A stretch of DNA of 64,000 bases from Tomocerus qinae (Eukaryota; Arthropoda; Collembola; Entomobryomorpha; Tomoceridae): positions 4,092,001 to 4,156,000 of the forward strand of contig CM034546.1 of assembly GCA_020055645.1 (NCBI GenBank), read 5' to 3'. Position numbers and translations under genes: made by a program. A model generated the notes under the pieces. That model searched no databases. It saw only the letters and a program-made list of their open reading frames with translations, and was not told where the DNA came from. This document shows, one piece after another, positions 2,845 through 64,000 of this stretch (position 1 is its first letter; the number at the start of each line of letters is the position of its first letter).

Positions 2845-3000
2845 AATCCTGAGACCTACGGGGGGTAAATCCTGAGACCGACGGGCGGTGAATCCTGAGT
2901 CCTACGGGGGGAATAACATACCGGTCGAAGGAAGGCCGATGGGAAAATACCGGTCGAAGGAAGGCCGAAGGGAAAATACCGGTCGAAGGAAGGCTGAGGA
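2845..3000. repeat. Two adjacent short minisatellites
   Basis: Two tandem arrays of roughly 27-bp units sit side by side. About 2845-2915 carries three copies built on AATCCTGAGACCTACGGGGG with point changes. About 2930-2998 carries three copies built on ACCGGTCGAAGGAAGGC. Both are much more GC-rich than the surrounding DNA. Confidence 0.75.
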
Positions 3001-6212: not shown

Positions 6213-6374
6213 GGTAAACGCATACATCGGAGTAAACTCCTCTGAATAACTAGTAAATATACGGTCATTATGTTACAAAACTATATAGCTATGTATACAA
6301 TGCTTTAAACAACATTCTAAAAAGTGAGTACGTTTTAAATAAATTAAAGTGAATTTTGGAAACCCTGACTTGAA

Positions 6375-8865
6375 ATGCAGCTATCTTGTACAAAACTCCA
6401 TAGTGAACAATCGATGTGCAGTTTTAATATGATATGGTTTTTAGTCTTAGTACTGTTTATTGTCCAATTGACTATTGGCTGGAAATTGTCAGAAATTGTA
6501 CACTTAAATACCAACTGTTACACTAACATAATTTTCAAACATGATAATTTTGAAACACATTTAGTGGATTTGCAGGATACAGAATTACCCAATATCCTGG
6601 TTCCTTACGCATTTAGCAATCACAAATATAATGGAAACGAACATTTTTGTACACCAAATAACGTATGGGGTTGGCATGATTGGGGAAAACGTTTTTACAA
6701 AAATGTAGAAGAGTGGGGAAGCAAATGTTTTGATAAATTGAAAGTGACAAATGTCAGTGTTTTATTATCATCTCCTAAAATAGGAAGCCGATTTAATTAT
6801 GTGGCACATTTCGCAGTTAATTTTAACCCTAATATTTTGGTGGACCTGTTATTAATCAATCAAATTAGTGAAGCTGCCTCAAGCAGAAGTAATATTTTTT
6901 GGCAGAAGCCTTTTTGGATCTCTAATAGGTGGTATAATTTCGTACAGTATTCTTCTGTTTACTTGCTTATGAACAAAACAAATTTGCCTAAGTTGCAGAC
7001 AAAAAGAACGAGTTCCTCTTTTATTTTGGAAGGTTCAACTAAGTTCGGCAAGTATTCGAATGTAGTGCACAAACTACTGTGGAAAAAGCCTTGGTTTTTG
7101 CTTTCTAATACAGTTGAAGGCGAGATCTATTTTATCTGTCCACAATTGGATAAAAGTTATCAACATAGTTACACTCTAGAGCTCTTATGTGCTCAAAACA
7201 ATTGCTTCCATCATCCACTGCACTTGATGGCTATGAAAATGTTTAGTGAAACGAGCACAGTTGTTGAAGCTTTTGTTCTATTTACACAAGTTGATAGTGA
7301 ATTGGGGATAAAATCTTACTGTGGACCACCAATTCGGAATAATTATTTCACCGGCTCCCAAAATTCTCATCTTCTTGTTCCTTCTATTATCGCTGAGAAT
7401 TATAAAAATTCATCAATAAGACTAGAATACAACCTTGATCTTTGTCCTGACGACTATCATCAACCACTCCATGTAATACATCAGAAATATGTGTATCTAA
7501 ATATTGAAGAAACATGGAATCAATTTCGAGACATGAGCCAATATTTTGTTGTCATTCAACCAAAGAAAGATTCTTACAATTTCATCTCTTGCGTCGTTTT
7601 GGAAGATGAAAATCTCTCTTTTTATGGATACATTCGTCCCTTCCGACTTGAAGCTTGGCTGGGAATAATCATTTCTATTTTCATGGTAATCGTATTCGTC
7701 AATTGTGTAACATTTTGCAGGAAAGAGGAAAGTATTCCAATTGTTTGGATTTGCTACGCTTATTTGCTAGAAGTAACTTACTCGTTATCAACAAAGACTA
7801 ACAAATTAATCTGGATCAAATTAGTGATTGGTCCGATGTTGCTCATGTTCATTGTATTGACAAATGGGTACAAGGGAATTGTTACTACAGATTTAGTTGA
7901 ACCACGCCCAGTGAAAAGAATTGAATCCATCGAACATTTGGCAAATCTGTCAAATTTCATGGCTCTTAGCGAATTTACGTTAGCGAGTGCATTTGAACCT
8001 TTTTATATGATCCCTTTATTTCAATACCACGTTATTGAGTGTCACCGATATTGTGACAATAATAACAATACCCAGTTATGTAACGAATCAATACTCCTTA
8101 GTGAAAAAACATTCGATGCAGTCTTGGCAGTAGCATACGAAACGGGTTAAACAAGTCATGTGAGTACAATGGCCTCCCCACAAAGATCGTAATATTTCCA
8201 CTCTTAGGTGTAATCTCTCGGTTACGAGTATTGTACAAAAACACTGGGTTGGATTTACTGGATAAGATTTGGAAACTTGTGAGCTTTCCTCCTGATTTCC
8301 CTTCGACGAGTGCTCAACAATGGATTGCACAATGCAATAATTCTGCTCTGATTCTCATTGGAATCCCCGTAATGGTGGAGTTGAACCGAAAAAAACGTTG
8401 TATTATGGAAATGAGGATAAATCCCTCTTTTCGTTAAACGTCCATACCACTTTCGATAGTTATAGCATTCCTATGATTTTCCCGTATTTAAAACAAAGAT
8501 TTTTTGCCCTTAGTGATTCTGGAATTTATCAGAAATGGTTAGAATATTCCAGGGGAAATAATTTTACCTAATGCAAAACTTGCTGGAAGAGAAATCTGCC
8601 ACGGCCAATAACATTTAGCAATTCTAACATTTCGTCGATATTTTTGATCAGCTTCTGCATTGCGCTGATATATTTCACAGCATTCTTGTGGGAAGATAGA
8701 AAGAATGTCCTAAAGATGGTCAAATTACTTGTCTTTACTGTTTGGAGTATTATTAAAACTGCCAAAACTAAATTGGAAAACAAATTAAGGTCCACATTTT
8801 CTCGAGTAAACGCTATTGTCTCATTTTCATTTATGAAATTAAAAAGCTTGTTTGCTACCACTTAA
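6375..8865 (+). pseudogene. Divergent ionotropic receptor (IR-like chemoreceptor), disrupted
   Basis: This looks like an intronless ionotropic-receptor-type chemosensory channel (iGluR superfamily, plasma membrane of sensory neurons). From the ATG at 6375 a hydrophobic leader (about residues 19-36) precedes a long divergent ligand-binding region. TM1 follows near residue 425 and TM2 near residue 490, ending in NGYKGIVTTDL, the usual IR position. The frame meets TAA at 8148. Reading continues in the next frame (8150-8437, including an S2-like region with FPPDFP). It shifts again near 8425 and runs on as FPYLKQRFFALSDSGIYQKW, a typical iGluR S2 segment. It then crosses an in-frame TAA (8569-8571) and ends with TM3 (LISFCIALIYFTAFLW) and a basic tail to 8865. 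Two frameshifts plus one stop indicate a pseudogene. Homopolymer errors in the assembly could explain the shifts but less easily the TAA. The family is assigned from topology and S2 motifs. Confidence 0.75.
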
Positions 8866-11011: not shown

Positions 11012-12019
11012 ATGGTCTCAACTTTTCTGTTTTTAGCACTTGTTATTTGTATCGCCAATAACTTTGCTCAAGCAACTCTTTGTGGACTTATTCCAAAAGG
11101 TAATTTCAAATTAAACTTTTCAATCCAATTTCCACAAAGTTTCATTGCTTGCGAAACAAACATTTTACTTAAATAATTTTGCTCTCCGTAAAAGATCTAA
11201 TTAAAAAAATTCTCCTAGCTCAAGGTAGTAAACAGAGTTGTTTTTCAGAATAATTTTCATTCATTTTTGGATTAAGTTAGTTAACACTGAAAATCAGTGA
11301 ATCATTTAAAGCTAGTTGGTTCTAAGTTTTTTTAAAACTTACAAGCAAATGAAACTCAGTAGATACAGTTATTGACAGAAACCCAATAATCTGTCTTTTT
11401 GGGTTGGGGTTTTTGGGTATCAAGTAGCAGAAATTCTAAAAGCTGGGATTTTGTGAATAAAATAGTAAATACCTTGGGTTTTACATTCCTTAATTATTCC
11501 ATAATTTTGTTACATGTGATTGTAGGTTGTTGCCATAATAGTGGCAATGGAGAATTTATTTACAGTAAACCGCTTGGCGGGAAGATATTCATGATTCCAA
11601 CTAATGGGGCTCAAAGAAAGGGAGATTGGACAGAAAATTTTGGTTTCTGTAAAAAACACTGCGCGGAGATGGTGACCATACAATCTGCTGGCGAAAATAC
11701 ATTCTTTTTGGACTTTGCTCGAAGCTCCGGCTCAGTGACCCATCCTGGTGTTTGGCTGGGAGGAAGATTTCAAAATAAGTGGAGTCCTCTTGAATGGGCA
11801 AACGGGGAAAGGGTCGTCTACTCTCCTATGGTCAACGGGGAACCTAATGAGCCAGGATTTACTTGTCTTAATGCCGCATGGGACAACGCAGGGCGTAACT
11901 ACTACAAATGGAGAAACGACTACTGCAAGAGAAACAAATATGTCATCGCTTGCCAAAAAACTGCAAACACAATGGCATGCTGTGGGGCAATTCCGAGGCA
12001 TTTTTCTACCAAACACTAA
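11012..12019 (+). CDS. Secreted C-type lectin, two exons
   Basis: Exon 1 is 11012-11099 and exon 2 is 11526-12019, with a GT-AG intron in phase 1, giving 193 residues. Residues 1-20 form a signal peptide, so the product is secreted. The rest is one C-type lectin domain: WLGG core, four Cys at the canonical places (FGFC, FTC, DYC, IAC), the EPN motif in NGEPNEPG (mannose-type calcium/sugar site) and a WRND variant of the WND motif. EPN lectins usually bind mannose-like sugars with calcium; an immune or mucosal role is inference. The downstream ATG-less open stretch at 11399-11525 is intron. A TATA box lies upstream and AATAAA follows at 12180. Confidence 0.9.
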
Positions 12020-25037: not shown

Positions 25038-27521
25038 ATGTGGACAGTTCGAAAATTATTATACTTGACATTAATGGTGTCAGTCTTTTCGTCGGCAATT
25101 TATTTTGAATTATTACAAAAAGCAATTTGTATTTCTTCCTTTGGCGATGGAAATTCTTGTCAGTTTTCGCATGACACGTGTCATATTCCAAAACTCGACC
25201 CTTACGATTTCTCCATTTTGAAATATCTAGAAGAACCAGATCCCATCGACTGCACTGGAGACTATCTCCCCATCTTCTATACCGATATGGATTCAAATCT
25301 ACTATTTAATGAGACGTATGAAAATCTATTTAACGTTACCGAAGATTGCTGCTACCGAGATATTATGAGGGGGGACAAGGATGATGATTTCAGGTATCTG
25401 GGATTATAAAAATTTTGAGTTAGCCTGACATTCAAGTCTTTGTCACTGTTTTTGTTCAAACAATTGTTGTAGTAGTTCTAATGAGAAATTTAATTATAAA
25501 AATTGAAAGCTATTTTCATTTTGTAAGTGTAAAGTAGATTAGGAATTATGATGGACTGAAAATTAATTATTTAATTCGCAATTAAATTGTTGTAGGTCAA
25601 TTTGAAGAAAGAAATTGCTAATGAATGTTATGATAATTTTTTCAGTTAATCAATTGATTGCGGATGTTTTAGATTATCAACCGAATGCTATCCAGTGAAA
25701 GGTCAAACAACAAAAATACCAATATCATCGGATTATATAGCCGTTTACTGTACTAATTCGACAACTTTGGAGAAAGACGTAATTGACATGTTTGGGTTTA
25801 TTCACCTCAAAGAAAATGTGGAACAGCGACTTGCAAATATTTCTGGAACGACTGACAATAATGAAAGTGTGAATGTTGTTATACTCGGACTCGATGGAAT
25901 ATCCCACATGAATTTTATTCGCACAATGCCCAGAACCTATTCATTTCTTAAAAACAATCTGTCAGCGATTTCAATGAATGGACTTACAAAAGTTGGAGGT
26001 ACAATTAAATATTATATATATCAGTATATTTACCATTCCAAAAGCAGATATTGCAGCATCCCACATTAAATTGAAAGTTAATTTTATTGTTTTTTTGATG
26101 ACAGGTGTACAGAAATTGTTATCGTCAATTTTGTTTTAAGAAAATGAAAAAACAACATTTTTTTTAGTAAACCTTATTATTTTTTCTTATTTTTGTTGCC
26201 AGATAATACCTACCCAAATGTTTATCCCCTTCTAATGGGTTTAAGCAACAATGCAGTAAATTGGGGTTGCGCCTTGATGAATACTTTCGATTCTTGTCCG
26301 ATTATCTGGAATCTCTACTCCTCTTTGGGTTACAGAACGGTACATTACGAAGACGGTCATAAACATGCAACGCTGTTCAACACGCACCACGGCAATGACT
26401 TTATTAAAATCACCAAAGTGTTTAACACAGTCCACAAAGGATTTACCACACCTCCAACAGATTATTATCTGCGACCTCTATTTATTGCCCAGGACGAGTT
26501 ATTGGGTCATCATCGACTTTCCGGCCACTACCGAGCATGCTTGGGACCAAGACTGGGTTTTGAATACATGTTGGACTATTTTAAAAAGGCTGCTTACACT
26601 TTTGGAAGAAATAACAAGAAATATTTCCAATTTGTCTGGTCTAATGTGCTCTCCCATGATTTTCTAAATCTTCCTAAGTTGGGTGACCAACATGTTTACA
26701 ATCTTTTGGAGTTTCTTCATTCAGGAAATTATTTAAACAAAACAGTCTTCATTTTGATGAGTGATCATGGAATCAATGTTGGAGCAATGAGAGCCAACAC
26801 ATACCAAGGCAGTATTGAAAACAAAATGCCTTTCATGTACTCCATAATTCCCCAGTGGGTTTTGGAAAAGTATAAATCTGCATTTGACAATTTTCGAAAC
26901 AATTCTGAAAGGTTAGTGACTAATTTCGATATTCATGAAACTCTTAAAGACTTGGCCAATTTAGAAAGCATCCAAAGCGAAAAAATTCGGCAGCGATCTC
27001 ATGAACTAGAGAAAATTGATTTTGATTCGCCATTTAACTGGAATGCAAATCGAGGGATTAGCTTATTTTTACCAATTCCTAAACACCGAACTTGTGATCA
27101 AGCTGCTATTCCCAACCAGTATTGCATTTGTCACTCGTTCAATGAAGTACAAATTCAGAACTCTAGTGAAGCCACACATTTAGGCGAAGTAGTTGTGATG
27201 GCTATTAATAAGATTCTTTCTAAATCACCGGAATGTGCTCCTCTAACATTGGTGGACATTACGAGACTACAAAAATCAACACAGGAAGAAAATGAAGGTC
27301 CTCATTTGGCAATAATCAATTTTATTACTGCTCCAGGTAATGCAAGTTTCGAAGGTACTCTAATAAAAGGGTCTAGTCAAAGTTGGACAGTCGATAATCC
27401 AACGACTATCAGCAGAACTAATACGTATGGAAATCAAAGTCATTGCGTAAGCAATGATGATGACTTGAAGAGATTTTGTTTCTGTCTAAACAATGTGGAA
27501 AGTGTGGAAACAAAAAACTAG
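25038..27521 (+). CDS. DUF229 protein (alkaline-phosphatase/sulfatase-like superfamily), three exons
   Basis: Exons 25038-25393, 25673-25998 and 26203-27521 join in phases 2 and 1 to give 666 residues. An N-terminal hydrophobic segment (about residues 8-24) suggests a signal peptide or a signal anchor. The core begins VVILGLDGISHMNF and MPRTYSFL and runs through NGLTKVGDNTYPNVYPLL, then LMSDHGIN, FMYSIIP and FDIHETL. These are the recurring blocks of the DUF229 family. In the superfamily the Asp after GL and the SDHG Asp/His bind metal, so a hydrolase acting on an extracellular or lumenal substrate is plausible; no substrate is known. The C-terminal third is Cys-rich with scattered N-glycosylation sites. 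Length is typical. AATAAA follows at 27653. Confidence 0.9.
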
Positions 27522-32518: not shown

Positions 32519-32796
32519 GTACACGTACAACAAATTTTAAGCCTTTTTACTGGATTTTTATAAAAGAGAACACGCTATAATTGACCTAGTCGATTTACCT
32601 TCACTTTATCTGAGAAAGTAGTTATAATAGTTGTTTTGTTGCGATTCCCCATTGTTGTAAACAAAAAAGATTAACGAAATTTAATAATTTTGTTTTCTTA
32701 TCTTCGCTGAACTCTATCATTTGTATCAATCCGCGATGAATTGTTCGTGAGATATTATTGAAAAATAAAAAAATGACCTGTTTTTGTTTTCTATAG

Positions 32797-32973
32797 CGTT
32801 TATTTGATATAACTTATAAATATGTAGGAAAAAGGAAAATTGCTTGGATTACTGCAGCCGTGGACGAGGAAACCGCTTTACAGGCAATTGTGTTGGCAAA
32901 ATCTCTGGCCAGAGTTGTCACAGAAGCTGACACTGTTGTTTTGGTATCTGAAGATGTTCCTAGCCAGCTTTGC
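32797..32973 (+). other. Candidate exon for the N-terminal part of the GT8 domain
   Basis: After a strong acceptor (ttgttttctatag) the frame reads through KIAWITAAVDEETALQAIVL and VVLVSEDVPSQL. This matches the first Rossmann strand, helix and second strand of glycogenin (xAxVTxxxNxxYxxGAxVLxxSL, then VVLxxxxV). The next exon (33556) continues with what follows in that fold. However, a stop (TGA, 32974-32976) comes before any GT donor that would give the needed phase 2. Either the exon has decayed, a non-canonical donor is used, or a small sequence error lies near 32970. The opposite strand is also open (32814-33032), but only the + reading fits the neighbours. Confidence 0.45.
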
Positions 32974-33555
32974 TGAGATATTTCACATTGAATAATTACC
33001 TCATCATCGGAACCTAAAACTTCGATTTTCATAAATTATTTGGTACATTGATTAAAAAAATAGGTTACCATTTAATTCCCCACGGGGGACCTATTATCAC
33101 TGTGTGCGTGTTGCTTATCGACGAGATAGCCTTAACTATTCAACCAAATGTTAAAGAGCTTAGTCACTTTTTACAATTTTTATTTCTAAAGTCATTAGTG
33201 AATATCAAAGTCTTACTCATCATTTCAAAATTCTATTTCAAGAAGTTTTTCTTTCAAAATGAAATATTTGAAATAAATATGCATGCGCAGTTAACTTGAT
33301 TGAAATAATGGAAATAAATACCGTGTACCCTATATTTCATTTATTTCAAATATTTCAATTTTCAAGGAAGGTGGAGGTAGAATATTTTGCGAAATATTTC
33401 AAATGTCATGTCTACGTGTGAATATGGCTAGTTCTTGCATATGAAATATGTTGCGCACTTAGTTTTCTGAATCAAACTAAAGCAGGTCAATGATGGAATT
33501 TTATTACATTTATTATTACATAATAGTTTTATGGTTGTACTTTTTTGTTTTTTAG

Positions 33556-36500
33556 TATACTTTTAACAAATTACTTCGACTCCGCCTTATCAGTTCACCT
33601 GGAGTTGAAAAATTCAAAACTTCCAAAGAACGAACTCATTATCATTCAAGCCTGGAATGTTAGCACACATGACAAATGTGTCTTTCTTAATCCAAATAAA
33701 ATGGTAACAAATCTCTCTCATTTTACATTATCAATCAAAATACTGTGAAAAGAGCATTAACACGTGTTTATAAGACGCCCATTGTCCTTAATTAAAATGG
33801 AGAACAGTTATGTATAAGTAAAGTAGACGTCATCTGTCATCTGCTGACGGTTAAATAACCACTGCATGCGGCAAGCCATTTTGTCATAATTCGAATATAT
33901 GTCACAAGCAACATTTTTGATTAACTTGAAAAAATTTTCCCCAAAAAAGACATTCTTTCATTCATTTCAAATTTTTTCTTAACTTACCTGAATTATTACC
34001 ATATAATTACTTACACTTATTTAGTAAAAGTAATGATTAATGAAATTAGAGTTAAATTAATAGGTCGTGAAAAAATGTGATGAATTATTTCAAACGGAAG
34101 ATTGTTCTACAATTTGGATAAGGGAAACTGAAAAACAGCTTGATGTGTCGGTTATGGTAATCAAACCGGGATATGAAGAATTCAGGAGCATAAGCAAGTT
34201 GGCTATGGGCAGTCAATACAATTTTTGTAAGTCTCCTCTCCTTCCTTACTCTGATCCAAATTTGCATACATGTATTGTGTCAGTTAAAATTAATATCAGT
34301 GTGCAAAGTTTACCACTTTTTAGGCTTTTTTTGGTAAAAATGCACTTAATGGAAAAAATGCATTTAATAGTAAAAATGGTAAATGGCGATTAATTAGGCA
34401 GATTAGTACAGGTACACAAGACGTATTAAATATAAATTTTACTTTATTTTCTATGAAACATTTCCAATTAGCCCCTTAATTAATCAAATTAATCATATTT
34501 ATTTGATTGTTAACCGAAAGCTGTAAATACTAAAACTAAGATTGCATTTGGAATCGTCAATTTAAAATTGATATGAATTTAATGGCAATTCATTTCTCAA
34601 TCGGTAAAAAAAACGTTTAGTGTCTCAATTCGTTGAGTCCAACTCTGATTGATGTACACTTTATGGATCATTTTGTGACAACAATCGTCAGCTGCTAAGC
34701 TATTTCCTACTGTGATAAAGAATTTTATTCAAAACCACGAAATTTAAAGTATACTGTTTTTACCACTTACCACTCCTTTTTCGGTGATGTTATTTAACGT
34801 TAAATACCATTAAAAACCACTTACCACTTGCAAGTGGTAAATGGTATTTCTAACACTGGTTAATATAATCAGTGGAGCGCATGGTGCTGACCGAAGATGC
34901 TGTTGTTTCATTATTGTTATTATCTTTTGACTTTTCAGTGTCGGAGGTCTTAAATGATCATTTTCACACTGGCAAAATAGGAGAGCTGTCTGAAAGTTAC
35001 AATTTTTATCTCTCAAGTTCTTCTGAAATGTAAGCAACCAAACGTGTATAAAAACATTTCCAACTGAGCCACTTGAAACATAGGGTATGTGTTACAGGAA
35101 GTTTGTACAGAGCGGATATATGCAAAATGCCTAGGATACATGTAATGTGAAAAATCAATATTTTGATGTTTAACGAACCTAACTTAATTTAATTCAATCA
35201 AATTTACATGAAAGTATATTTGACAGTCATGAAGTTGTATTATATAAGGTTAGGTTCGTTAAAAATCAAAATTTTGGTTTTTCACTTATGCTAGGCATTT
35301 TGCATAAGAGTTTCTTTTGTAAAATAAAAAAATTGACCATACAATTGGATGGTCGGTTGCGACTTAGTGATATGTGTAGATCGAATATCAAAATTTCTAA
35401 GGTTCGATTCCTGATTTGACCATCAAATAATTTTTAAATTTATTTAATACACCCGATGGCTTAAATACTTATCCCTGAACGTAAATACATATATAGTTCG
35501 ATATGCATAAAAAAATTTTGTAAGTTTTAATTTATAAACACATCGTACGTATTCACTGTACACAAATATATATGTAAATGTCTGTCAACATATCTATGTA
35601 TGTAATTGAATAATAATAAATATGTATTGTATGATTCTGTAAGGTTTAACAGCGACGTGTTAAATATCAAAATTCTATCCGGCCTAGAAAATACAGAGAA
35701 TAGCTCTCAGAAAAACGGAGTTTTCACAAATGGCGTGTCTCCAGACATATTCCAGGTAGTTATGATAACGAGCATGGGGGACTCAAATTATTTTTATAAA
35801 TCCTAAATAAAAAGTAAACAATTCTATCCAATGTATTTACTCTAGAAATTATTGCCAGTTAACGTGAATGGGGTATCTGTAATGATGTTAATTAAATAAC
35901 TTGAAATATATATAAATATTAAACTTTGACATGTAAGTAAAGGAAAGATTTTTTTAAACCCAAGTAATAAGATTTAATTCCAGATTCAATCATTTCCTTA
36001 TATACAAAGCTCAATTTATTCATAACGTAGGCTATGATACTGATCAAATTTCTTGGTTGGTATTTGGAAACTAGAGCTTAGTTAAACTTTTCTTTCAATC
36101 AATTAATTTGGACGTTAACACGCAATAGTAATACTTTATAGCTGGAGTAAGAAAATTCATTCCAATTAAACTTTTGTAACATAAGCTTTCACGTTATCTG
36201 TTAATATACTTTGTTAACAGAAGGTGTATACTTTATGGAGAACTTGGACATCGGAAACAGAATTACATAAAAATTTATGCGGCAAAGATGCCTCTGGATT
36301 TAAGAACAATGGCCATTATAAAGATTCCATTGCCATTATTGGACACAGCTGTCGATTTCCTGGAGCCAACAGCATTGACGAGTTTTGGGAACTGATAAAA
36401 AATGGAGGAGATGGAATCCGATCCGTTCCTGTAGAAAGACTTTCCGAAAATCAGCTTAACGATGTCAAATACACGGAATCAAAAGCTGGTTTCCTCAAGT

Positions 36501-39500
36501 GCCCGATTGACGAGTTCGATGCCAAGTTTTTCGGAATCAGTCCTCGAGAGGCGGCTTTTATGGATCCACAGCAGAGGCTTGTGGCTGAAGTGGCTTGGGA
36601 AGCGTTGGAAAATGCGGCAATCGATCCACATTCTTTGAAAGGGAGTAACACGGGAGTATTTACTGGAGTGTGGACACACGACTACGAAAGAGTGATTGCC
36701 GAAAACTCAACTGCACAAGATTTCCACCATGTGATCCTTGGAAACGCCTTTTCTGCAACATCCGCGAGAGTTTCTTACTTCTTGGGTCTCAATGGACCGA
36801 ATGTGGCTACAGAGAGCGGCTGTTCCTCTTCGATGGTGGCTCTTCACCTGGCTTGCGACAGTCTCAGGAAAAGGGAAACCAATTTGGGTTTGGTGTTGGG
36901 GGCTAACATAATTATTCTGCAATTGCCACTCGGGGATATTCCAATTCTGGCCAAAGATGGTCACTGTAAAACTTTCGATGAATCGGCGGATGGGTTTGGC
37001 CGAGCAGAAGGAGTGGCCGCAATTGTTTTGAAAAGATTGCCAGATGCAATTAAAAATGGTGACAGGATTATGGGCATTATTAGAGGGACAGCAGTGAGTA
37101 ACGAAGGAACATCTTCCAATTTCGGAACTCCGAGTAAACTCTGTCAGCAAATTGCTATAAATCATGCTTTGAATAATGCACGAGTCAAGCCAGGAGATGT
37201 TGATTATGTAGAGGCACATGGAACTGGAACCCCCATTGGGGATCCCATTGAATTCGCCGCCATTTCCGCCGGCTACACTGGACCAAGGGAAAAACCACTT
37301 TTAATCGGTTCAGTTAAAACAAATATAGGTCACACAGAATCAGCAGCTGGGTTAGCGGGTCTGATGAAGGTTATTCTGGCGATGGAGCATGAAGAGATTC
37401 CTCCACATAGAAATTTCACTAAATTAAATCCAAGTATTGACTTGGGCGTTCTTCCCACCATTATTCCGGTTGAACCTACACCATGGTTAAAAAATTCTGA
37501 AAGAACTCGAATTGCAGGCGTGAGTTCATTTGGAATAAGTGGAACCAATGTCCATGTCGTGGTCGAGGAACCTCCATGTGATATAGATGCCCGCACTTTA
37601 GAAGTAAATGTTCTAGAGTCTGAAAAGTCTCATTATATTCTAACGCTCTCTGCAAAATCAGAAAATGCTCTCAAAGATTTGACCAAACTTCATGCTAAGT
37701 ATTTGAACAAATACCCGTCCGTTAGTATCAGTGACCTCACTCACACCTGTAATACAGGACGGGCCCATAACAAGCACCGTCTAGCAGTTACTGGAACATC
37801 CGTGACTGACTTTCAGAAAGCTTTAGAAAGTGATGTGTATGTTCCAACGACACTTAATGATAAACCCAAAGTGGCCTTTCTTTTCACTGGACAAGGTTCG
37901 CAATATGCGGGCATGGCAAAGTCTTTGTTTCAGTCCAATTATGTGTTTAATCAAGCTTTCACTGAGTGCGATAATATCATAAAAAATAATATTGACATTT
38001 CATTGAAAGATGCTTTGTGGAAAGACTCAGTTTGTAATTTATTAGATCAAACAGTTTGTAGTCAACTTTCTATCTTTGCTGTGGAGTACGGTCTTTTAAA
38101 ATTGTGGGAAAGTGTGGGAATCGTTCCTGATATCGTTCTAGGGCACAGTGTCGGTGAATTTGCTGCTGCGGTGGCTGCTAAGATAGTTAATCTTGAAAAT
38201 GCTTTAATTTTGCTTACTGAACGTAGTAGACTAATTCAGAGTCTCCCACCAGGTGGAATGATTGCTGTTCGTTCACCAAAGGAAAAAGTGTCTAAACTAA
38301 TTTCGGAATTTTTAAGTGTCCATTCGGATATGTGGTTGGATATAGCTGTTATCAATTCCGAGGAAGAAGTGGTAGTAGCTGGTAACAAAACTTCAATTGA
38401 AACGTTTAAAATGTTTTGTGAACATAATGAAGTGAAAATTCAGGTTCTCGCAGCTTCTCATGCTTTTCACTCTCGAGATATGGACAAAATTATGAAAGAA
38501 TTTGGAAAATTTACAAGTAAATTGTCTTACCAATCTCCGAAATGCCATTACGTATCAGGAACTACAGGTGAATATCTGTGTAGCAACGAGATGGAGGATG
38601 GGAGTTATTGGGTACGACATGCAAGGGAATCAGTCAATTTCCAAAAGGGTATGTGCACACTGGGAGATTTAGGCTATAATGTTTTTGTGGAAATTGGAGC
38701 ACATCCTGTATTGTTGGCATTAGGAATGAATAACTTAAACACATCAGGAAACGAACTGTGGGTTCCTTCTTTAAGACGAAATAAGGACGACTGGGAAACT
38801 ATTTTGAGCAGCATGGGAACATTATATATAAACGGGATAAATATTAATTGGGAATCTTTAGATAGATGTTGGACTCGGAAAAAGTTGCAATTGCCAACTT
38901 ATCCTTTTCAACGTCAAAAATATTGGACTGAGGTATCTAATGACAGTACAGGAAAGATAATCCATCCTCTATTAGGTAAGAAAGTGACACTAGCAGATTT
39001 CTCTCATCATGTGTACAAACACACTTGGAGTTTAACAGATTTGCAATATATTAAAGATCACCAAGTAGCACATGTAACTGTTTTACCGGGTGCAGGATTT
39101 TTAGAAATTATTTTAGCTGCAGGAAAAGATATTCTACTTAAAAACAAAGACGGTGATGTAGGTTTACTGACTGTAGAAGATTTTGTTGTAGAATCTCCAC
39201 TGGAGATGGAGGAAGGAAAGAAATACAAAATTCAAGTAGTTGCATCTCCTGTAGAATTAAATCCGAATACTTTTCATGTTAAGGTATACATGTTTAGAAA
39301 ACTTAATGGTTACAATGACAAAAAAGGTTGGAAACGTTACTCGAGTGGGAACGTCACTCTTAGCGAATCTGTTATCTTGCCATTCAACGATACTTCCGTT
39401 GAAAAAAATATTTCGGAGGATAAAGAAACCAAATCAGAGACAACATTTCTGCCTGAAGAAATGGCCGAAGTTAAAAGTCGTTGTCCTACCGAACAAGATT

Positions 39501-42500
39501 CAAAAGAATTCTATAAATTGGCTCCAGAAATTGGAATATTTTTTGGCGAGACTTTCCAAAGCATAGAATCAGTTTGGGTAGGCGAAAATGAAGCGCTAGC
39601 TTTAATTCCCGCCCCTATGAAAGCAGGTAATTTAACCGAATATGTATATCACCCAATAGTTTTGGACGCCATGATACAATTGTTTGGATTGAGTATCGGC
39701 AAGGATAACCTTGACCTTTATCTGCCGATTGGAATTGGACGAGTTTATCTTGTAAATGATTTAAAGTCGCAAAATTTATTTGCTCATGCAAAATGGACGA
39801 AAGAAAAGTCTGAAGGGACAGTTGGTCTGTATAATGACAATAATGCTCTACTGGCAGTTATGGTGGGTATTAGACTGATGAAGACTTCTGTCAGTTCTTT
39901 CTTAAATGTGATTAATGCCCACAAGAACATGTTACCCGGAATGTACCAAGAGGTTTGGAGGCAACGAATCGGGCCTGTCCAGTCGCGAATAGACGTTAGG
40001 AAAATTGTTGACACACACGATATCCTTGAACCACTCGCTGTAAGTATGGAACAGCACATGCATTTGTTTGAGATGGAATGTTCCGTTAAAGGAAGATATG
40101 CTGTACTATTAGGTGTAATGAAAATGTTTAAACTCAACCGATTTTCACCAAAAGAAGGTCAAGTTTATTGCATCGAGACTTTTTTTCAAAATTATTTAAT
40201 CCACCTCGAACATCGTAAGTTTATTAAACGTTTATTCGAAATATTATGTGAAGATGGTTACGGTATCGAAATCAACGAGGGATCTGGATTTATGGAAAGC
40301 TGGAAATGTATTAAAGAATTTCCTACTCTTGAGAAACTTGAAAAGGAAATGTCAGATATTAACGTTTATTTTCATTCCGAGGGTGCATCAGTGGGTCGAA
40401 CCATAACTTTCGAAATTTTCTTAAAATGCTTGGCCTATACGTGGGATGTTTTGACCGGTAAAAAGACGGCTGTGTCTGCTTTATTCGGAACAGAGGATTT
40501 GGACCCATTAGATATATACACAAAGAGTAATGAATGTGTTGTAGCCAATATACGAGCGGGTAGATATCTTGGACTTGCACTGAGAGAGTTTAAATCAGAT
40601 CCAAAAAAAGAAGACTCCATTGTTAGAATTATTGAAATAGGAGCTGGCAGCGGCGCTACGACTAAAGAAATTTTGGCAGTTTTAAAAAAAGAAGAAATTC
40701 CATTTCGTTACACATTCACAGATATCTCTCCGCATTTCTTTGAAGGAGCCAAAGAGAAGCTTTCTGCATATAATGGAATAGATTATAAGATTTTGGATAT
40801 CGAAAAAGATCCTTCGACGCAAGGATTTTGTCCGCATTATTACGATGTTGTAGTGGCTGCTAATGTTATTCACGCAACTGCAGATATAAAAAATTCTTTA
40901 GGTAATATCCATAAACTGATCTGTCCTGATGGCATTGTGCTATTAGAGGAGATAACTGATCTTAGCAGGCCCATTGACTTCATATTTGGAATTTTAGAAG
41001 GATATTGGAAATTTACTGATTACAATTTACGATTTCGTCACCCGATGATTCCGCATCAAGTTTGGAGCAAAGGTTTTGTTGAAACGGGATTCACTAAAGT
41101 TACTAATGTATCTTCGAAAAATGAATTTATTACCGTTTTAACATCACGTGCTATAAACGGGAGAGAAAAAACAGGAGAGATTAGAAATATTTTGAATAAA
41201 GAAAACCAGAAAAAGCCTTTATGGTTAATATTTGGTGAAGAGACAGATTTCTCTATTAAAGTTCAAAATAGACTTTTAGATGTTTGTGAAGACGTAATCT
41301 TAATTAAAACAGATTCCCAGAATATAAGTATCAGTAATCAACATGTACTCCATTGCGACCTAATTAACGAAAACGCTTTTAAAATAACTACTAGAGAGTT
41401 GTTGGACAAATACCAAGTTAATGGTGTAGTGTATTTAGCAACCAACATTAAAAACGAAAATAGTCAATTGACATATCAATCTATATTAAATGTGTTTAAA
41501 TTTACTACAGAAATAGCCCATCACAATTTGCAGTTCATCATTGTTACAAAAGGTATATATTACATTCAAAATCAGAAAACAGTGTGTCCGTTCAATGCTG
41601 TCATTTGTGGGATGGCCAAAAGCCTGGTAAACGAAGTATCAAAATTGCAACCGAAAATGATTGATCTAGATCCAGACGAATCTAATTATTCAGTCGATAT
41701 TGAACAAATATTTTTTGAAGTTTTTGAGAAGGAGGACACTTTGGTTTGTTTTAGAAATAAGAAAAAGTTTGTTTCAAGGGTTATAGAACTACCGAAAACA
41801 TTAGCTCCATTAACGCTTCCAAAAGGACGATACACAATTGACATTCCTAAATCAAAAAAAATTAATGATGTAAGTTTCTCTTCAATGGGGAAGGACACTC
41901 TTAGTCCTAAAAATATTGAAGTAATGGTGAAAGCTGTAGCATTGAATTTTAGAGATATTTTTGTGATTCTCAAGCCACCTATGTACACCACTTTAAAGGA
42001 AACTATTGGGTCAGATTTTGCAGGTATCGTTACTAATATTGGTTCAGAAGTCACTAAAGTTAATATTGGGGATGAGGTTTACGGAGTTTCAATTAACAGT
42101 AGTGTCGCTAGTCACGCCATAACACATGAAGATATTGTTTTACATAAACCAAGCGAAACGACATTTACAGATGCTGCAACTCTCCCTTCCGTTCTAATGA
42201 CGGCTTTTTATTGCATTGTGACTATAGCCGATTTAAAAAAGGATGAAACTATTTTAATTCATGTTTCATCTGGAGGTGTTGGACTAATTGCCATTCAAAT
42301 AGCTGAACATATTGGAGCTAAAATAATAGCGACCGCCGGATCTCATCGAAAGAGGAATTATCTTCGAAGTTTAGGTATTGAGCATGTATTCCATTCCCGA
42401 GATTTGACTTTTGGAGATGAAATAGCTAGAGTCACAAATGGACGAGGTGTAGACATGGTTATCAATTCTCTGACTGGACACGGATTCAAAGAAACAACTC

Positions 42501-45244
42501 TGAAGGCTTGTGCACAAAATGCACGTTTTGTTGAGATTGGGAAAGTAAATATCTGGAAACCAGAAGAAGTTCTGGAATTTCGACCAGATGTCCAATACAC
42601 AATCGTTGATTTAGAGAAATCAACAAGCACAGAAATTGCGAATTTATTACACAAAATAAAATGTCACAATAAAGGGGATTACAAACCGTTGCCTTATTCC
42701 AGATATGACGTGGTTAATATCAGAGATGCCCTAAATTACTTCTTGAAAGCAAATCACATTGGAAAGATTGTTGTCACTATGCCCAATATAACCGAAACTG
42801 GATATCAATGCATCAAAAAGGATTTGATGCTCAGTTCTAATGCGACATATCTGGTTACTGGAGGTTTAGGTGGAATAGGACTTGAAGTTGCAAAATGGAT
42901 GTCTGATTCTGGATGTAAGTATCTAGTTCTGGTTGGTAGATCTGCACCAAGTGAAGCTGTCTCACAAGTATTGAACAGCTTGAGAGCGAAAGGTTGCAAA
43001 ATCTGTTCATTCCAAGTCGACGTTGGAAATTGGGAGCAGTGCAAATCTCTATTCGAAACGATTTTGTCTTCCGATCTTCGTCTTCCTCCTCTTAGAGGAG
43101 TGATTCATTCTGCTGGTGTTATATCCGATGCCATTTACATGAACCAAACTTGGGAGAAATATCAAACCGTCTTCAATGCAAAAATCGCCGGATGTCTCAA
43201 TTTGCATGAATTAACGAAAGATTTACATTTAGAACATTTTGTTTTATTTTCATCCATGGCTGGCTTAGTCGGTCCAATGGGGCAAAGCAATCACGCCGGG
43301 GCAAACGCTTTCCTAGATTCATTTGCCAATTATCGGTATTCAATTGGTCTTCCAGCTCAGACAATCAATTGGGGTGGATGGGCAGAAGTCGGAGCTGCTT
43401 CTAATACAGCCTACGGAAAAGAAGGTTTATTTGGCGTCAAGCCTTTCACTCCTAATCAGGGCATTGCATCTTTAAAATTTATTATGGGTAGACCTGACTT
43501 GCTTCAAGTCGGCGTTGTGCAAATTGATTTGGAAGAATTTAAACAGTACGTTAACATTAGAAATGTACTGTCTGAATTATCATACAACAATGAGTCTGTA
43601 GAATCTGCTTCTACTTCTATCCAGTCAGAGAAGTTTTGGGCTGACATTGAGCCTCTCAGTTCTGATGAAAAACAGTCTTATATTAAAGCAAAAATTATTG
43701 CCATTATTAGAAAAACGTTAAAATTGCCGGAATCAGAATCGATTGACGAATTCCAAACATTCCAAGAAATGGGCTTAGATTCTCTAATGGCTGTCGAAAT
43801 GAAAAATAAACTTCAATGCATCGTAGGGAAACGAATAACTTTAAATGTCACAGCAATGATGGACAACCCAACGATAAATTCTCTCAGCAAATATTTAGTA
43901 GAGCAAGCAATAGCAACAGAAACCAATTGCAGTATTCAAGGTCAAACAAAAACTAAAGGGAAAACTGAATTTAAACTAGACGATATGTACGAATTAGTAA
44001 AGCATGATTCAAAGTTATCGGAAGAAATTCAGGCCACAGTTAAATACGATCGCCAGTCTAAAATAACTAACATATTGTTAACAGGTTCAACAGGTCACCT
44101 TGGAGCATACCTGTTAAAAAATCTAGCAAAAAATGAGGGAGTAAAAATTGTTTGCTTGATTAGAGGAAAGTCGCCAGAACTAGCGCACAAAAAATTAATA
44201 GCCAATTTGAAAAAGCATGAACTGTTAGATGGTATCAATATGGATAATATTTCTATTGTTGTAGGGGATATTACGAGTGACAATCTAGGACTACCAGTCG
44301 ATGACTATGTACAACTTTCTTCAGTAACTGATATGGTGATCCATCTAGCTGCAAAAACAAATCATGTAGAAAAATATCAGATCAACAATGTTAATAAAAT
44401 GGACATTCGGTCCGTCGATGTATTAGGAACGGTTAACATTCTTAAATTTGCGACCATCATTAAAACAAAGCGCGTTGTATTCCCATCTTCTTTTTCGTCC
44501 ATAAATCGTCTAACAGATGAAGGATTTATTTATGAAGATTTTCCAGAAGATGAGAATAATGCCGACGATCTCACAATGGGATACTCGGTTTCAAAGCTTG
44601 TCTGCGAAAAGTTGTTACGTCAAGCAAACGAGAGAGGGATTCCTTGTACCGTAATTAGATATTCAAGTCTTTTGGGGCACAGCGAGACCGGACTTTTTCT
44701 GGGAAACACAAACTCCTTAATTAATCAATTACTCATTTCTATTCGTTTCGGCATGATTCCAAACATAGAAGGCGGTTGTTTCGGAATTCCAGTTGATGTG
44801 GCCAGTGAACTAACAATGGAGTTGATATTCAATGACAAAGCCCCAACTGGGGTTTTCAATATTGTCCAACCAGTTCCCATGTATGTCAAGGATTTTGTTT
44901 TGGTTGCTAAAAAAATTGGGTATGATGTGAAAGTGGTGAGCCTGCAGGAGTACGATGAAAAAATAAAAAAAGAAGTAGAAACTGACAGTTTTTTGACGAT
45001 CTTTAAAGATAGTTATGCTGAGGGTGGGATTGCATCATATTCAGAGGCGTCAAAGACCCATCCGAAATTACGCCAGTATTTAGAAAGTGGAATTAACATA
45101 AACAAAATTAGTGACAAATGTAGGGAACTAATACCAGACATTGATGAACGAATACCACATCCTCATGGAATTTTTATTTCCTACTTACATTTTGCTGATC
45201 GTTCGGGAATTTCTGAGAAGTTTGGATTGACTCGTAAACATTGA
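33556..45244 (+). CDS. Glycogenin-like GT8 domain fused to reducing polyketide synthase with terminal reductase (5' end incomplete)
   Basis: Exons 33556-33703, 34064-34226, 34939-35029, 35644-35755 and 36221-45244, phases 0, 1, 2, 0. The last exon alone encodes 3007 residues (numbered here from 36221). KS: about 35-460, active site Cys201, His333, His371. AT: about 550-880, Ser643 in GHSVGE and HAFH, predicting malonyl-CoA. DH: about 910-1215, His947 and Asp1149. C-methyltransferase: about 1405-1630, EIGAGSG at 1472. Degenerate pseudo-KR: about 1660-1850. ER: about 1880-2185, SSGGVG near 2016. KR: about 2205-2440, GGLGGIG at 2214, Ser2345, but His2358 at the Tyr position. ACP: Ser2521 in GLDSL. 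Thioester reductase: about 2618-2935, TGSTGHLG and YSVSK. Family knowledge predicts an iterative cytosolic synthase making a methylated, reduced chain released as aldehyde or alcohol. The exon has no ATG before the KS and a stop at 36215-36217, so the upstream exons are required. AATAAA at 45538. Confidence 0.9.
35119..35306. mobile_element. Intronic MITE with about 55-bp inverted ends
   Basis: The left end TATGCAAAATGCCTAG and right end CTAGGCATTTTGCATA are inverted copies. The similarity continues to CGAACCTAAC on the left and GTTAGGTTCG on the right. The element is 188 bp and lies in the last-but-one intron of the GT8-polyketide synthase gene. Confidence 0.7.
35348..35424 (+). ncRNA. tRNA-like sequence (tRNA pseudogene or SINE head)
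   Basis: A 77-nt stretch has a perfect 7-bp outer stem (GATGGTC with GACCATC), a good B box (GGTTCGATTCC) within a T-arm having one mismatch, and a TTAGTGATATG region resembling an A box. Three extra bases separate the T-arm from the acceptor stem and the anticodon arm is not clean. It is more likely a tRNA-derived repeat than a working tRNA. It lies in an intron of the fusion gene. Confidence 0.35.
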
Positions 45245-48565: not shown

Positions 48566-49240
48566 TTGAAAAATTGCGAATCTTTTCGACCAATTTCGAA
48601 CTTCTTCGACTAATTACGAATCATTTTGGTTAATTTCGTATGTCTTTGACTAATTTTCAATCTTTTCGACTAATTTCGAATCTTTTCGACTAATTTCAAA
48701 CTTATTTGACCAATTTCGAATCTCTTCGACCAATTTCGAATTTCTTCCACCAATTTTGAATCTCTTCGACCAATTTTGAATTTCTTCCACCAATTTTGAA
48801 TTTCTTCCACCAATTTCCAATCTTTTCGACCAATTTCGAATTTCTTCCGCCAATTTCGAATCTCTTTGACCAATTTCGAAAGTTTTCGCTAAATTTTGAA
48901 TTTCTTTGACTAATTTCGAATCTTTTCGATAAACTAATCGAAAATGTTTGAAACTAGTCGAAGAAATTCGAAACTAACCGAAGAAATTGAAAATTAATCA
49001 AATATATACGAAATTATCCAAAACCATTTGAAGTTAATCGAAGAAATTCGAAATTAGTAAAAGAAATTCGAAATTAGTAGAAGAAATTCGAAATTAGTAG
49101 AAGAAATTCGAAATTAGTAGAAGAAATTCGAAATTAGTCGAAGAAATTCGAAATTAGTCGGAGAAATTCGAAATTAGTCGAAGAAATTCGAAATTAGTCG
49201 GAGAAATTCGAAATTAGTCGAAGAAATTCGAAACCAATTA
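48566..49240. repeat. Inverted satellite: 20-bp units in opposite orientation
   Basis: The left arm (about 48566-48935) repeats units like GACCAATTTCGAATCTCTTC. The right arm (about 48936-49235) repeats units like GAAATTAGTCGAAGAAATTC, the complement of the left unit. The array therefore forms an approximately 670-bp palindrome at unit level. Open frames of about 67 residues on the - strand come from the 20-bp periodicity and are not genes. Confidence 0.85.
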
Positions 49241-52582: not shown

Positions 52583-53075
52583 AAGCCTTTTCGAGTAAAT
52601 TCGAAACTTTTCAAGCTTATCGAGTAAATTTGAAACTTTTCAAACTTAACGATTAAATTTGAAACTTTTCGACTAAATTTGAAACTTTTCAACTAAATTT
52701 GAAACTTTTCGACTAAATTTGAAACTTTTCAACTAAATTTGAAACTTTTCGACTAAATTTGAAACTTTTGAAACTGTAACCTTTCGATTAGAAGCGAAAC
52801 TTTTCAAACTTTTCGATTAGAAGCGAAACTTTTCAAACTTTTCGATTAGAAGCGAAACTTTTCAAACTTTTCGATTAGAAGCGAAACTTTTCAAACTTTT
52901 CGATTTGAAGCGAAACTTTTCAAACTTTTCGATTAGAAGCGAAACTTTTCAAACTTTTCGATTTGAAGCGAAACTTTTCAAACTTTTCGATTAGAAGCGA
53001 AACTTTTCAAACTTTTCGATTAAAAGCGAAAGTTTTCAAACTTTTCGATTAGAAGCGAAACTTTTCAAACTTTTT
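52583..53075. repeat. Composite satellite: 20-bp then 29-bp units
   Basis: 52583-52775 holds 20-bp units of TTCGACTAAATTTGAAACTT. 52785-53070 holds about ten 29-bp units starting CGATTAGAAGCGAAACTTTT. Both share the core GAAACTTTTC and differ from the 48.6-kb satellite in sequence but not in style (TTCGA motifs). Confidence 0.85.
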
Positions 53076-55069: not shown

Positions 55070-58000
55070 TCAAGTTTCCTTGAATCGCTCCGAAAATATA
55101 ACTTTGTGTTCGACTGGGCCAACCACCAAACCAGCAGGACCAGTTTTGTCTAATGATGGTATCGGCAATGATGGGTCGAAATCTACTCTAAAAAACTGAA
55201 ACAGTCGCATTGTGATAAGAAATAATTCATCTCTGGCCAAAGACTCTCCTGGACATACTCTTCTTCCAGTGGAAAAAGGAATAAAAGCTGGGTGACGAAT
55301 AATTTCCGTTTCGTGTTCATTTAAATATCTTTCAGGTCGAAAATTTTCTGGGTCTCCCCAGACTTCTTGGTCATGGTGAACGCAGTACAAGTTAGCAATT
55401 ACGAAAGTGTCTTTCGGAATTAAATATCCGTGAAATTGGACGTCTTCAGTAGCTTTATGAAAAATACTAACCGGTAGTATCGAAGAAAACCGCAATACTT
55501 CCATGATCACAGCTTCGATAAATGGCAGTCTAAATATAAACCACATATTAGTTTCAGAAATCTTTGTCTAAATCTTAGTCTTAGGAATTAATGTTTTCAA
55601 TAATGTAACCGAACGCATACCTTCATGTGCTAAATTTAGTATACGGAGGTATGTGTAGGCCGTAGGGGTACATTATTGAAAACATTAATTGTAACAATAA
55701 TACATTTACATAAAATAATACTTTAAAAATCAATTATTTCAAACAATATTAAATAAAAACACGAAGCAAATCAACGAAATAATGTTAACATTTGCTAAAA
55801 AATAATTCTGGTTGAAGTTTGAGTATAGAAATGACACGTAAAAATTTCATTGAAATGAAAAAAGCCATTAGCGCGGCCAGCTACGCTTTTCAATATATTG
55901 TTAGCTGCATAAGTGCTTTTCTTAAAAAGCCGTTTACTATACTGTAGTAAAAGTAGAAGTGGTCGAAATTTATTTTCCTGATTATAAGATGTGATTTTAT
56001 AAAATAAATCCTAGGAAAATCTATTTCGATAATGCATTGTTAATTTTCTTTTTATTGCGTCACAAACTTCCACATCGACATTTTCAGAGTCAATCCCAAA
56101 GTATGTACTACAAACAAAACACTTTACGCAACTCCCCTATTATTCACAAGCCATTTCTTCCCCGAATGTAGACCTTACTATCTTTAGTTTGACAAAACAA
56201 TTTTTTTTGTAAAATTACCCTTGGGTATGTAGTTATGTATAGTTTAGAAAATTGTGTTTCGGTAATGGGTGAAGTTTGCAATATAACATTCATAGTAGTT
56301 TGTATAATGTATTATTAATGGCAGCATACAAAAAGACAAGAGTTTGGAATACCCCCATTTCCCACCCCACTATGTTGGACGTCCAGGAAATGTCTATGGG
56401 AAACAGTTTGAAACTGTGGGAAATAGTTTGAATAAGTAGGAAACATGGGAAATAAAGCCCAAAAATTTGAATTTTGGCGCAATTTTTGCTCTATTTCCCA
56501 TACTTTCCATTTTTAACTCTATTTTGATACCCACATTTCCCAGTGGGAAATGGGTAACTTCCCGTTAGTGGCATTTCCCATTCGAAACCTAGAAAAAGAA
56601 TTTCCTTAAGTCCTACTAAGGGGGCCACTGGTCAAACCTAACCTGATTTAGCATAACCTATCAAGCACGTATCCAGAAATTTGACCAAGAGGGGGCCCAC
56701 CAAAATATAATATTGGTAAAATAAAGACATGTTCGCGCGAAGCGCGAAATTTTTTTGCACTTTTTACCTTTTTTGACAAAAAAATCGCCTTTTTCTGAAA
56801 ATTTAGGGGGGGGGCCCGGGCCCCCCGCCCCCCCCTCTGGATACGTGCGTGTAACCTATAATCTAATTACAAGGTAGATGTTATGCCATAATTAAATAAT
56901 TTATAGCCTCCAATTTAACTATGTAACTAAATTAATATAATCTTCTGCCTTTAGTTAACACTAAAGTCCAAAATACGTTGTAAATTGTAAACCCACTTTT
57001 CTAAACTGATATGTTTTAATGCAATCATTAGCCAAACTGGTCACAAACTTTTTGCCAAACTGGCATTTGTCAAATGGCAGACACCTTTTTACATTATAAC
57101 AATTGTTTATTTTACTTACTTTTGTCGATCTTTTAGAGAAGGTTGATTAACACTTTGCATATGCAAGGAAATTATGTTGCTCAACTTTTGTTGTATTTCT
57201 GGGTAATGGGCCATCAAAAATATCAACCATCTTAAAGTCGTTGAAGATGTTTCAACACCTGCTACAAAAATGTCGTTAAGTCCGAAACGCAAGTTTTCCC
57301 CTGAAATAAGTTTATATTATAGTAGGTTAATTGGTTCCACTTCAATAATGACCTCTTTATCAATTTCAATCGCGATTTCTAATCGATAACTCCCCGCAGA
57401 TCAGACCGATACAGTCTTTTTAGAATTTTCATCTATTTTGTTGCCTCAGTCTGGGGATTACGAAAATCGAAAACTCTGTAATAATATGATAAGCATACTA
57501 AAAAGTAGGAAAATAAACATCACATACATACCTCCAGTATTCCCATAAAATGGGGATTTCTCATCTGTTGTGGAGCCAATTTTCTGTAAATAGTAATCAA
57601 TCAAATCCCTTTGGGTTCCATCCTGATAAGTTTCCCTGTGGCGATTGACAATGTTCTGCATGTAGTCAAGAACTTGAGTTATGTTGTACAGAAAATGGTT
57701 GTATCCCAACAGTCTCGGGAACATTTTTGCCCATTTAAAGAAAAATAGAAGAATGCCTTGTCCGACTGGTGATGCAGTACACCTTTAGAAGAGTAATTTT
57801 ACAATATTACGATACAAAGTGCAACATGTTTTCAGAAACATTACTTATTACCAGAGCCGTGATATTTAGTTGAAAACATGTTTTTTATCTTTGGTCATTC
57901 AATCCTGAGACTTAGGATGTCAACGTTTCGCAACTTTTCAAGCATTTTGACATCCACTTTATTTTACATATATTGGGGTTTGGAACCTAAAAAATATTTT

Positions 58001-63431: not shown

Positions 63432-64000
63432 TGAACGACCCCGTAATTTAAATAGACGTCATTGTAAATGACCCCCTCATTTTAAATAGACGTCATTGTA
63501 AATGACCCCCTCATTTTAAATAGACGTCATTGTAAATGACCCCCTCATTTTAAATAGACGTCATTGTAAATGACCCCCTCATTTTAAATAGACGTCATTG
63601 TAAATCGACAGTGCCCAAGCCCCCCAAAATCGAAGAAAAGAAAGAAATTTTTGTCTTAAAACCAAAAATTTTTCATAATATTTTCAACGATAATTTGTCC
63701 TAAATTTTTTTCTGGCTGCGTCCCTGGCAAATGACCCCGTCATTTTAAATAGACGTCATTGTAAATGACCCCCGCATTTTAAATAGACGTCATTATAAAT
63801 GACCCCGTCATTTTAAATAGATATCATTTTAAACAGACGTCATTGTAAATGACCCCGTCATTGTAAATGACCCCGTCATTCTAAATAGAAGTCATTGTAA
63901 ATGACCCCGTCATTTTAAATAGACGTCATTGTAAATGACCCCGTCATTTTAAATAGACGCCATTGTAAATGACTCCACATTTTAAATACACGTCATTGTA
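63432..64000. repeat. 34-bp satellite running off the window edge
   Basis: Tandem units of AATGACCCCCTCATTTTAAA plus TAGACGTCATTGTA, with CCCCC or CCCCG variants. The array is interrupted by a unique 120-bp segment (about 63606-63727) and continues to the last base of the window. Each unit junction contains the perfect inverted motif GTCATT-GTA-AATGAC. Confidence 0.9.

Follow-up and report, generated by a model that had tools for sequence, protein, structure and literature searches.

A glycogenin-like domain probably fused to a multiplied reducing polyketide synthase in the springtail Tomocerus qinae

Glycogenin is itself a dimer, and in many polyketide synthases (PKSs) the N-terminal place is taken by a docking or loading domain. 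Type I PKSs are already known from springtails: in the text of PMC5490193, 30 of 36 clusters of Folsomia candida are given as type I PKS clusters, and OXA62418 of the same species is described as horizontally acquired in the text of PMC10764717. The word glycogenin is absent from the main text of both papers; in the available text of PMC5490193, glycosyltransferases are among the carbohydrate-active domains of transferred genes, without a tie to PKSs. We describe here a locus of Tomocerus qinae (contig CM034546.1, positions 4,092,001 to 4,156,000) at which exon structure and homology indicate, with very high probability, that a glycogenin-like domain is fused to a reducing type I PKS. The joining of the two appears unreported, as we found no report of a glycogenin-PKS fusion in the literature searched, which left subscription papers and preprints mostly outside. 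Such a fusion would unite two textbook systems, the protein of glycogen initiation and the polyketide assembly lines.

The whole stretch of 64,000 nucleotides is called the window (G000:C1:4092001-4156000) and belongs to an assembly of 334,443,149 bases; contigs are labelled C1 to C5 and loci L016 to L045. The layout of the gene, obtained with a purpose-written spliced alignment, and the domains of its product are as follows, in window positions; KS stands for ketosynthase, AT for acyltransferase, DH for dehydratase, cMT for C-methyltransferase, ER for enoylreductase, KR for ketoreductase and ACP for acyl carrier protein.

32828..32972, + strand: exon A of the glycogenin-like domain (KRKIAWITAAVDEETALQAIVLAKSLARVVTEADTVVLVSEDVPSQL; KRKIAWITAAVDEETALQ...), phase 1 in and 2 out, from the spliced alignment
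33556..33703, + strand: exon B (ILLTNYFDSALSVHLELKNSKLPKNELIIIQAWNVSTHDKCVFLNPNKM), phase 2 in and 0 out, place of the lost DxD (NPN), from the spliced alignment and the residue table
34064..34226, + strand: exon C (VVKKCDELFQTED...VMVIKPGYEEF...), phase 0 in and 1 out, from the spliced alignment
34939..35029, + strand: exon D (SEVLNDHFHTGKIGELSESYNFYLSSSSE), phase 1 in and 2 out, from the spliced alignment
35644..35755, + strand: exon E (FNSDVLNIKILSGLENTEN...PDIFQ), phase 2 in and 0 out, site of the lost HFxGxxKPW motif
36221..45244, + strand: giant exon, remnant C-terminal glycogenin helix (KVYTLWRTW...) and then the reducing type I PKS, 3007 codons plus stop
36323..37417, + strand: KS, active-site Cys in TESGCSSS (Pfam PF00109/PF02801; motif)
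37877..38842, + strand: AT, GHSVGE (Pfam PF00698; motif)
38963..39883, + strand: DH (Pfam PF21089/PF14765)
40631..40936, + strand: cMT, EIGAGSGATT (Pfam PF08242; motif)
41906..42775, + strand: ER (Pfam PF08240/PF00107/PF13602)
42842..43387, + strand: KR, GQSNHAGAN where Tyr is usual (Pfam PF08659; sequence)
43691..43897, + strand: ACP, MGLDSLMA (Pfam PF00550; motif)
44078..44809, + strand: terminal thioester reductase R, NAD_binding_4, LTGSTGHLG (TGxxGxxG) (Pfam PF07993; motif)

Five small exons (32828-35755) splice in frame into the 9-kb exon, and the intron phases are 2, 0, 1, 2, 0 in order. Four of these exons (33556-35755), with GT-AG introns and donor phases 0, 1, 2, 0, had been proposed in an earlier reading made from the letters and their open frames (the sequence-only reading), and all four were found again by the spliced alignment. 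The fifth, exon A, had been overlooked; its paralog matches in the genome search reach 92% identity. In the open-frame listing of the window, the frame of the giant exon spans 36218-45244 (3008 codons). Its first codon lies inside the acceptor region, which reads as a stop, CAG and then K36221, and no Met is present ahead of the KS. Both features had been noted earlier and are seen in the sequence. Because of the in-frame stop just before the acceptor and the lack of a Met before the KS, the 9-kb frame cannot start alone with an ATG.

The exon models are not the product of chance, since paralogous loci have these exons too, in identical phases. Of the 21 modelled loci, 10 show the full pattern 2, 0, 1, 2, 0 leading into the PKS exon (the window, L016-L019, L022, L025-L027 and L029). 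Excluded from this count were L021, whose PKS lies outside the stretch, L028 and L035. The pattern is present in L035, but its last intron has 40 bases, the minimum of the aligner. L028 has the pattern too, together with a non-GT gap of 41 bases in its exon C (1630-1670 of the reversed stretch); an indel in this exon, or its decay, is the probable cause. Models past exon C are poor for some paralogs (L023, L030-L034).

The relationship of the small exons to glycogenin was assessed in three ways. In a phmmer search of the PDB, the joined exons of the window hit glycogenin at E=1.8e-7. For a profile built from 11 copies in the genome, the match to glycogenin-1 reached E=2e-34 and covered chain residues 4-157. 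The Pfam GT8 model gives no match to the window exons; it is reached by 4 of the 11 copies, weakly (best 3e-4), and the window copy is not among them. The reading suggested by the Pfam result, that there is no GT8 homology, is overturned by the matches to PDB sequences and by the profile of paralogs. The GT8 profile check that the sequence-only reading had put forward is therefore divided in its outcome: negative for the window copy with Pfam GT8, positive with the glycogenin structures. Together with the in-frame exons, this homology supports the glycogenin-like domain joined to a PKS that had been suggested there. It is important to note that annotation would overlook the domain of the window, because the Pfam GT8 model misses it.

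The joint between the two parts is best seen in divergent copies. Their giant exon opens with a glycogenin-like last helix, LWLTIFSEDVHPTL in L037, WMNIFNDDIHPKL in L039 and LWLEIFMDEVVREL in L034; the glycogenin sequence used for comparison is LWWNIFTTNVLPLL. The segment KVYTLWRTW of the window looks like a worn form of this final helix. The domain border had been placed inside the giant exon from the window alone, and rightly so, the three divergent paralogs showing the helix better. From the joint to the KS no Met is found in the window, L016, L018, L019, L025, L026, L028 and L030.

The arrangement is not confined to the window. At least 154 matches to the window exons and at least 102 to the window KS were found in genome searches. 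Co-location was counted over the matches listed by three such searches (window exons, KS and glycogenin), with two split KS pieces merged, the native glycogenin gene and three doubles excluded and the window's own matches included; several glycogenin-like matches can belong to one gene. A glycogenin-like match lies upstream, on the same strand and within 25 kb, for 77 of the best 100 KS loci, including the 46 best-scoring. Conversely, among the matches listed, 151 of 165 glycogenin-like matches have a KS downstream on the same strand and none has one on the opposite strand. Five of the 14 matches without a listed KS sit in L033, L038 and L039, which have a PKS. Both parts occur in order in 16 of the 20 stretches first fetched, and in L020, L021, L023 and L024 the KS lies beyond the stretch end. 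The new chimeric enzyme of the sequence-only reading holds as a fusion but not as a single enzyme, a large gene family being found instead. An assembly artefact, which has nothing in its favor beyond the odd arrangement, is contradicted by the many diverged loci sharing it: the arrangement is found at many separate places on C1, C2, C4 and C5, with KS domains 53-97% identical to that of the window. The probability of such an artefact is negligible.

The PKS expansion is extreme and is concentrated on C1 (for example at 0.4-0.8 Mb, 3-6 Mb, 28.2-28.4 Mb, 57-58 Mb and 72 Mb). The KS loci number at least 100 and are 53-100% identical to the window KS, and many of the open frames are near 3000 codons.

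It is important to compare the fused genes with the glycogenin gene of the animal itself. The genome has one ordinary glycogenin gene (L036, C1:83795026-83799697), with 45-67% identity to the human protein over five exon matches; the remaining 18 of the 23 matches of the glycogenin genome search fall outside it. The introns of this native gene are located at human residues 48 (phase 2), 106 (phase 0), 161 (phase 1) and 203 (phase 2). In L039, a fused gene, all four recur with residue and phase unchanged. The first four introns of the window repeat the native phases in order (2, 0, 1, 2); introns 1 and 2 align at matching residues, and introns 3 and 4 are located in loosely aligned stretches. 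Other divergent copies have only part of the native set, L034 being without the intron at 106 and L033 without that at 48. For the native first exon, an end in phase 1 is a possible reading (ATGCCAG, followed by GT), and this is what the start of exon A needs. The shared places and phases of the introns provide strong evidence that the fused domain is derived from the animal's own glycogenin gene. No native last exon was recognized by eye among open frames of at least 22 codons in a further 3.4 kb, where a shorter one could escape, and the fifth, phase-0 intron at the joint thus has no native counterpart for comparison.

The ratio of nonsynonymous to synonymous substitution rates (dN/dS) was estimated for 10 copies (45 pairs). 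For the glycogenin exons it is 0.15-0.52 with a median of 0.25. For the PKS part, which was trimmed to the available stretch (741 bases for the pair of the window and L027), the median is 0.18 (0.09-0.50). Pooled values by exon are 0.13 for A, 0.33 for B, 0.22 for C, 0.32 for D and 0.32 for E, as obtained from 11 of the 21 modelled loci, L024 being left out because it has only four introns. Exons A-E contain no stop in these 11 copies, in an alignment that penalizes stops. Being Nei-Gojobori counts made on paralogs, these values are approximate, and gene conversion among the copies is possible. They are well below 1, and the glycogenin domain is therefore kept by purifying selection, exon A most of all.

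The residues of sugar transfer show a different picture in the native and in the fused genes. At all 19 checked positions, which we take to be the ligand and catalytic sites of glycogenin, the native gene is equal to the human protein. The fused genes were compared in 24 rows, of which L030-L033 and L035 were trimmed to at most the first 155 residues and L020 and L023 to 153. Both aspartates of the DxD metal motif, Asp102 and Asp104, are found in a single row, L030 (DSD); the window has NPN in place of DAD. Asp163 is present in none of the 24 rows and Arg77 is deleted in all of them. Where the rows have a letter, His212 is kept in 1 of 15, Tyr195 in 0 of 15 (in a loosely aligned stretch), Asn12 in 1 of 22 and Tyr15 in 0 of 22. 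In the window copy Lys86 is replaced by I, Asp163 by a gap and His212 by I, and the auto-glucosylated Tyr195 is gone together with the DxD aspartates. Owing to these losses the domain is read as a pseudo-glycosyltransferase, and it is likely to be catalytically dead. The sugar transferase of the sequence-only reading is not borne out in the window, and its suggestion that the fold might prime the synthase is unlikely, the sugar-transfer residues being largely gone.

These comparisons allow us to propose, with reasonable though not high confidence in the whole, the following account. The glycogenin gene of the animal would have been duplicated and one copy joined in frame to a single-exon reducing PKS, and the joined gene would then have multiplied to dozens of copies. 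In the protein, a glycogenin fold at the N-terminus would precede KS-AT-DH-cMT-ER-KR-ACP-R. The dead fold would act without catalysis, as a scaffold that caps a dimer, docks a partner or anchors the enzyme. The synthase would work iteratively and make methyl-branched reduced chains, which would be released as aldehyde or alcohol, for example as precursors of cuticular lipids. A scaffold or docking role is the best guess because the fold occupies the place of a docking or loading domain and because glycogenin is dimeric; taken by itself, this role has about an even chance of being right. To anchor or to dimerise the synthase, as suggested earlier, are possible forms of it.

Several observations weigh against this account, and some of them lend themselves to other explanations. 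A number of sugar-transfer residues survive: Asp102 in 5, Asp104 in 7 and Lys86 in 8 of the 24 fused rows, Gly215 in 15 of the 16 rows with a letter there, and the complete DxD motif in L030. An active transferase, glucosylating itself or the polyketide, would agree with the glycogenin-like sequence and with the motif of L030. However, the residues for metal, donor and acceptor have disappeared as a set from almost every fused row, whereas all 19 checked positions are conserved in the native gene, and transfer activity is very unlikely. A domain without transfer could still bind a sugar nucleotide or glycogen, and could then sense the carbohydrate supply or tie the synthase to glycogen stores. 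The survival of Lys86 and Gly215 is in line with this, as is the constraint on exon A (pooled dN/dS of 0.13 against 0.22-0.33); exon A codes for the N-terminal Rossmann piece, which contacts the nucleotide in glycogenin. The universal deletion of Arg77 and the near disappearance of Asn12 and Tyr15 speak against binding, which we consider unlikely while leaving it some weight.

A second group of observations concerns the window copy and the beginning of the gene. After 32972 the window reads CTGAGA (CT for GT), so that the canonical donor of exon A is lost. The near relatives L016-L018 have GTGAGT at this place, and a GT donor is present in 18 of the 19 paralogs having this intron among L016-L035; the exception is L025, which is likewise without a GT donor, and L033 is without the intron. 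Through the lost donor, the window copy may yield a shortened product or be decaying; at the CT it may splice poorly, skip the exon, hold a sequence error or be at the beginning of decay. A start-codon exon was not found upstream of exon A. The conserved stretch at about 32680-32755 (containing ATGAATTGTT) was considered for this exon and has the wrong phase, and consensus candidates at 30622 and 31686 are without support. In addition, a Met is located between the joint and the KS in five copies (L017, L022, L027, L029 and L035). The broken donor and these Met residues would agree with a case in which two adjacent genes, or dead glycogenin exons stranded before a PKS, had been wrongly read as one gene. 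However, the dN/dS of the glycogenin exons is well below 1 and they are free of stops in the 11 copies, in 10 copies the joining intron has phase 0 and keeps the frame, the window and the seven loci named above have no Met before the KS, and the last glycogenin helix sits within the giant exon. A misreading of this kind is highly improbable. The claim of a fusion is carried by the gene family and not by the window copy alone.

A third group concerns parts that occur separately. No glycogenin-like match was found for 23 of the best 100 KS loci, and nine glycogenin-like matches, spread over six places, are without a nearby KS among the matches listed. Two of the 23 loci, L044 and L045, have a Met shortly before the KS. 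A tblastn search of 3.1 kb of these two, with the 24 fused rows plus the native and human sequences as queries, gave nothing below E=0.2, and the same search on three divergent fused loci gave E=1e-17 or better. The PKS can thus exist without a glycogenin domain, since L044 and L045 have no detectable one, and these two loci are possibly its unfused form.

The domains KS, AT, DH, cMT, ER, KR, ACP and R, which had been read from the sequence of the giant exon, were found in that order by Pfam. The sequence-only reading had a further, inactive KR between cMT and ER; the KR model of Pfam matches two stretches. The catalytic Tyr of the KR is replaced by His in all three copies inspected (GQSNHAGAN in the window, GQSNHAAAN in L029 and L032); His at this place is not rare among KR domains of PKSs. 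A set of KS-AT-DH-cMT-ER-KR-ACP-R would be expected to build a methyl-branched, reduced product that leaves the enzyme as an aldehyde or alcohol, although the KR has His for Tyr. As only one set of domains is present, we infer that the module is used iteratively. The surface lipids of springtails include polymethyl-branched 2,4,6-trimethyl esters, restricted to Neanuridae among the springtails studied, and 9,17-dimethylpentatriacontane in Tomocerus vulgaris (PMC11321324). In the accessible text of that paper linear compounds are ascribed to the fatty-acid pathway and the word polyketide is never used. The PKS with its cMT, ER and R domains would be a candidate maker of the methyl-branched chains of such lipids. 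A further extension would be that the founding fusion led to a family in which the dead domain acts as a carbohydrate-responsive or glycogen-tethering regulator, one copy serving each lipid product and the whole driving the diversity of springtail surface lipids. This extension is distinctly doubtful.

Other features of the window are as follows. Neighboring genes recognized by Pfam code for a DUF229 protein (26148-27521), a C-type lectin (11390-12019) and a cytochrome P450 exon (55070-55567, - strand). An open frame of 593 codons at 6369-8150 has no Pfam match; by eye it has membrane-like segments and resembles a relative of ionotropic receptors. The GC skew at 1-4000 is 0.33-0.39 in 2-kb steps, the highest in the window. 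Tandem arrays of short period, mostly 18-60 bases, are located at 48572-49238, 52587-53074 and 63447-64000.

The fused protein can finally be compared with the known systems. The domain is similar to human GYG1 (PDB 3q4s, 3t7m) in profile homology over chain residues 4-157, and the C-terminal helix of glycogenin has a counterpart in the divergent fused copies. The window copy differs from glycogenin in being without the DxD pair, the donor and acceptor residues and Tyr195. Moreover, the fused domain continues into the PKS, whereas glycogenin has its own C-terminal tail, which binds glycogen synthase. If the proposed account is correct, the animal has given a PKS a host-made front domain, and the birth of a chimeric enzyme can be traced in a genome that still contains the parent gene.

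On the PKS side, bacterial reducing PKSs from Lysinibacillus (L041), Paenibacillus (L042) and Aliikangiella (L043) are homologous over most of their length, with 32-36% identity in the best segment. This comparison was a scan by six short peptide patterns; it gave three distant matches only, which do not indicate a bacterial donor. The present genome is similar to that of Folsomia candida in that many large type I PKSs are found in a springtail. The AFPKs of arthropods are also animal synthases, a few of them with a terminal reductase according to the text of PMC10764717. They are described there as resembling fatty acid synthases and having a TE domain, whereas the synthase of the window has an intact-looking cMT motif, an R domain at its end and a glycogenin domain at its front.

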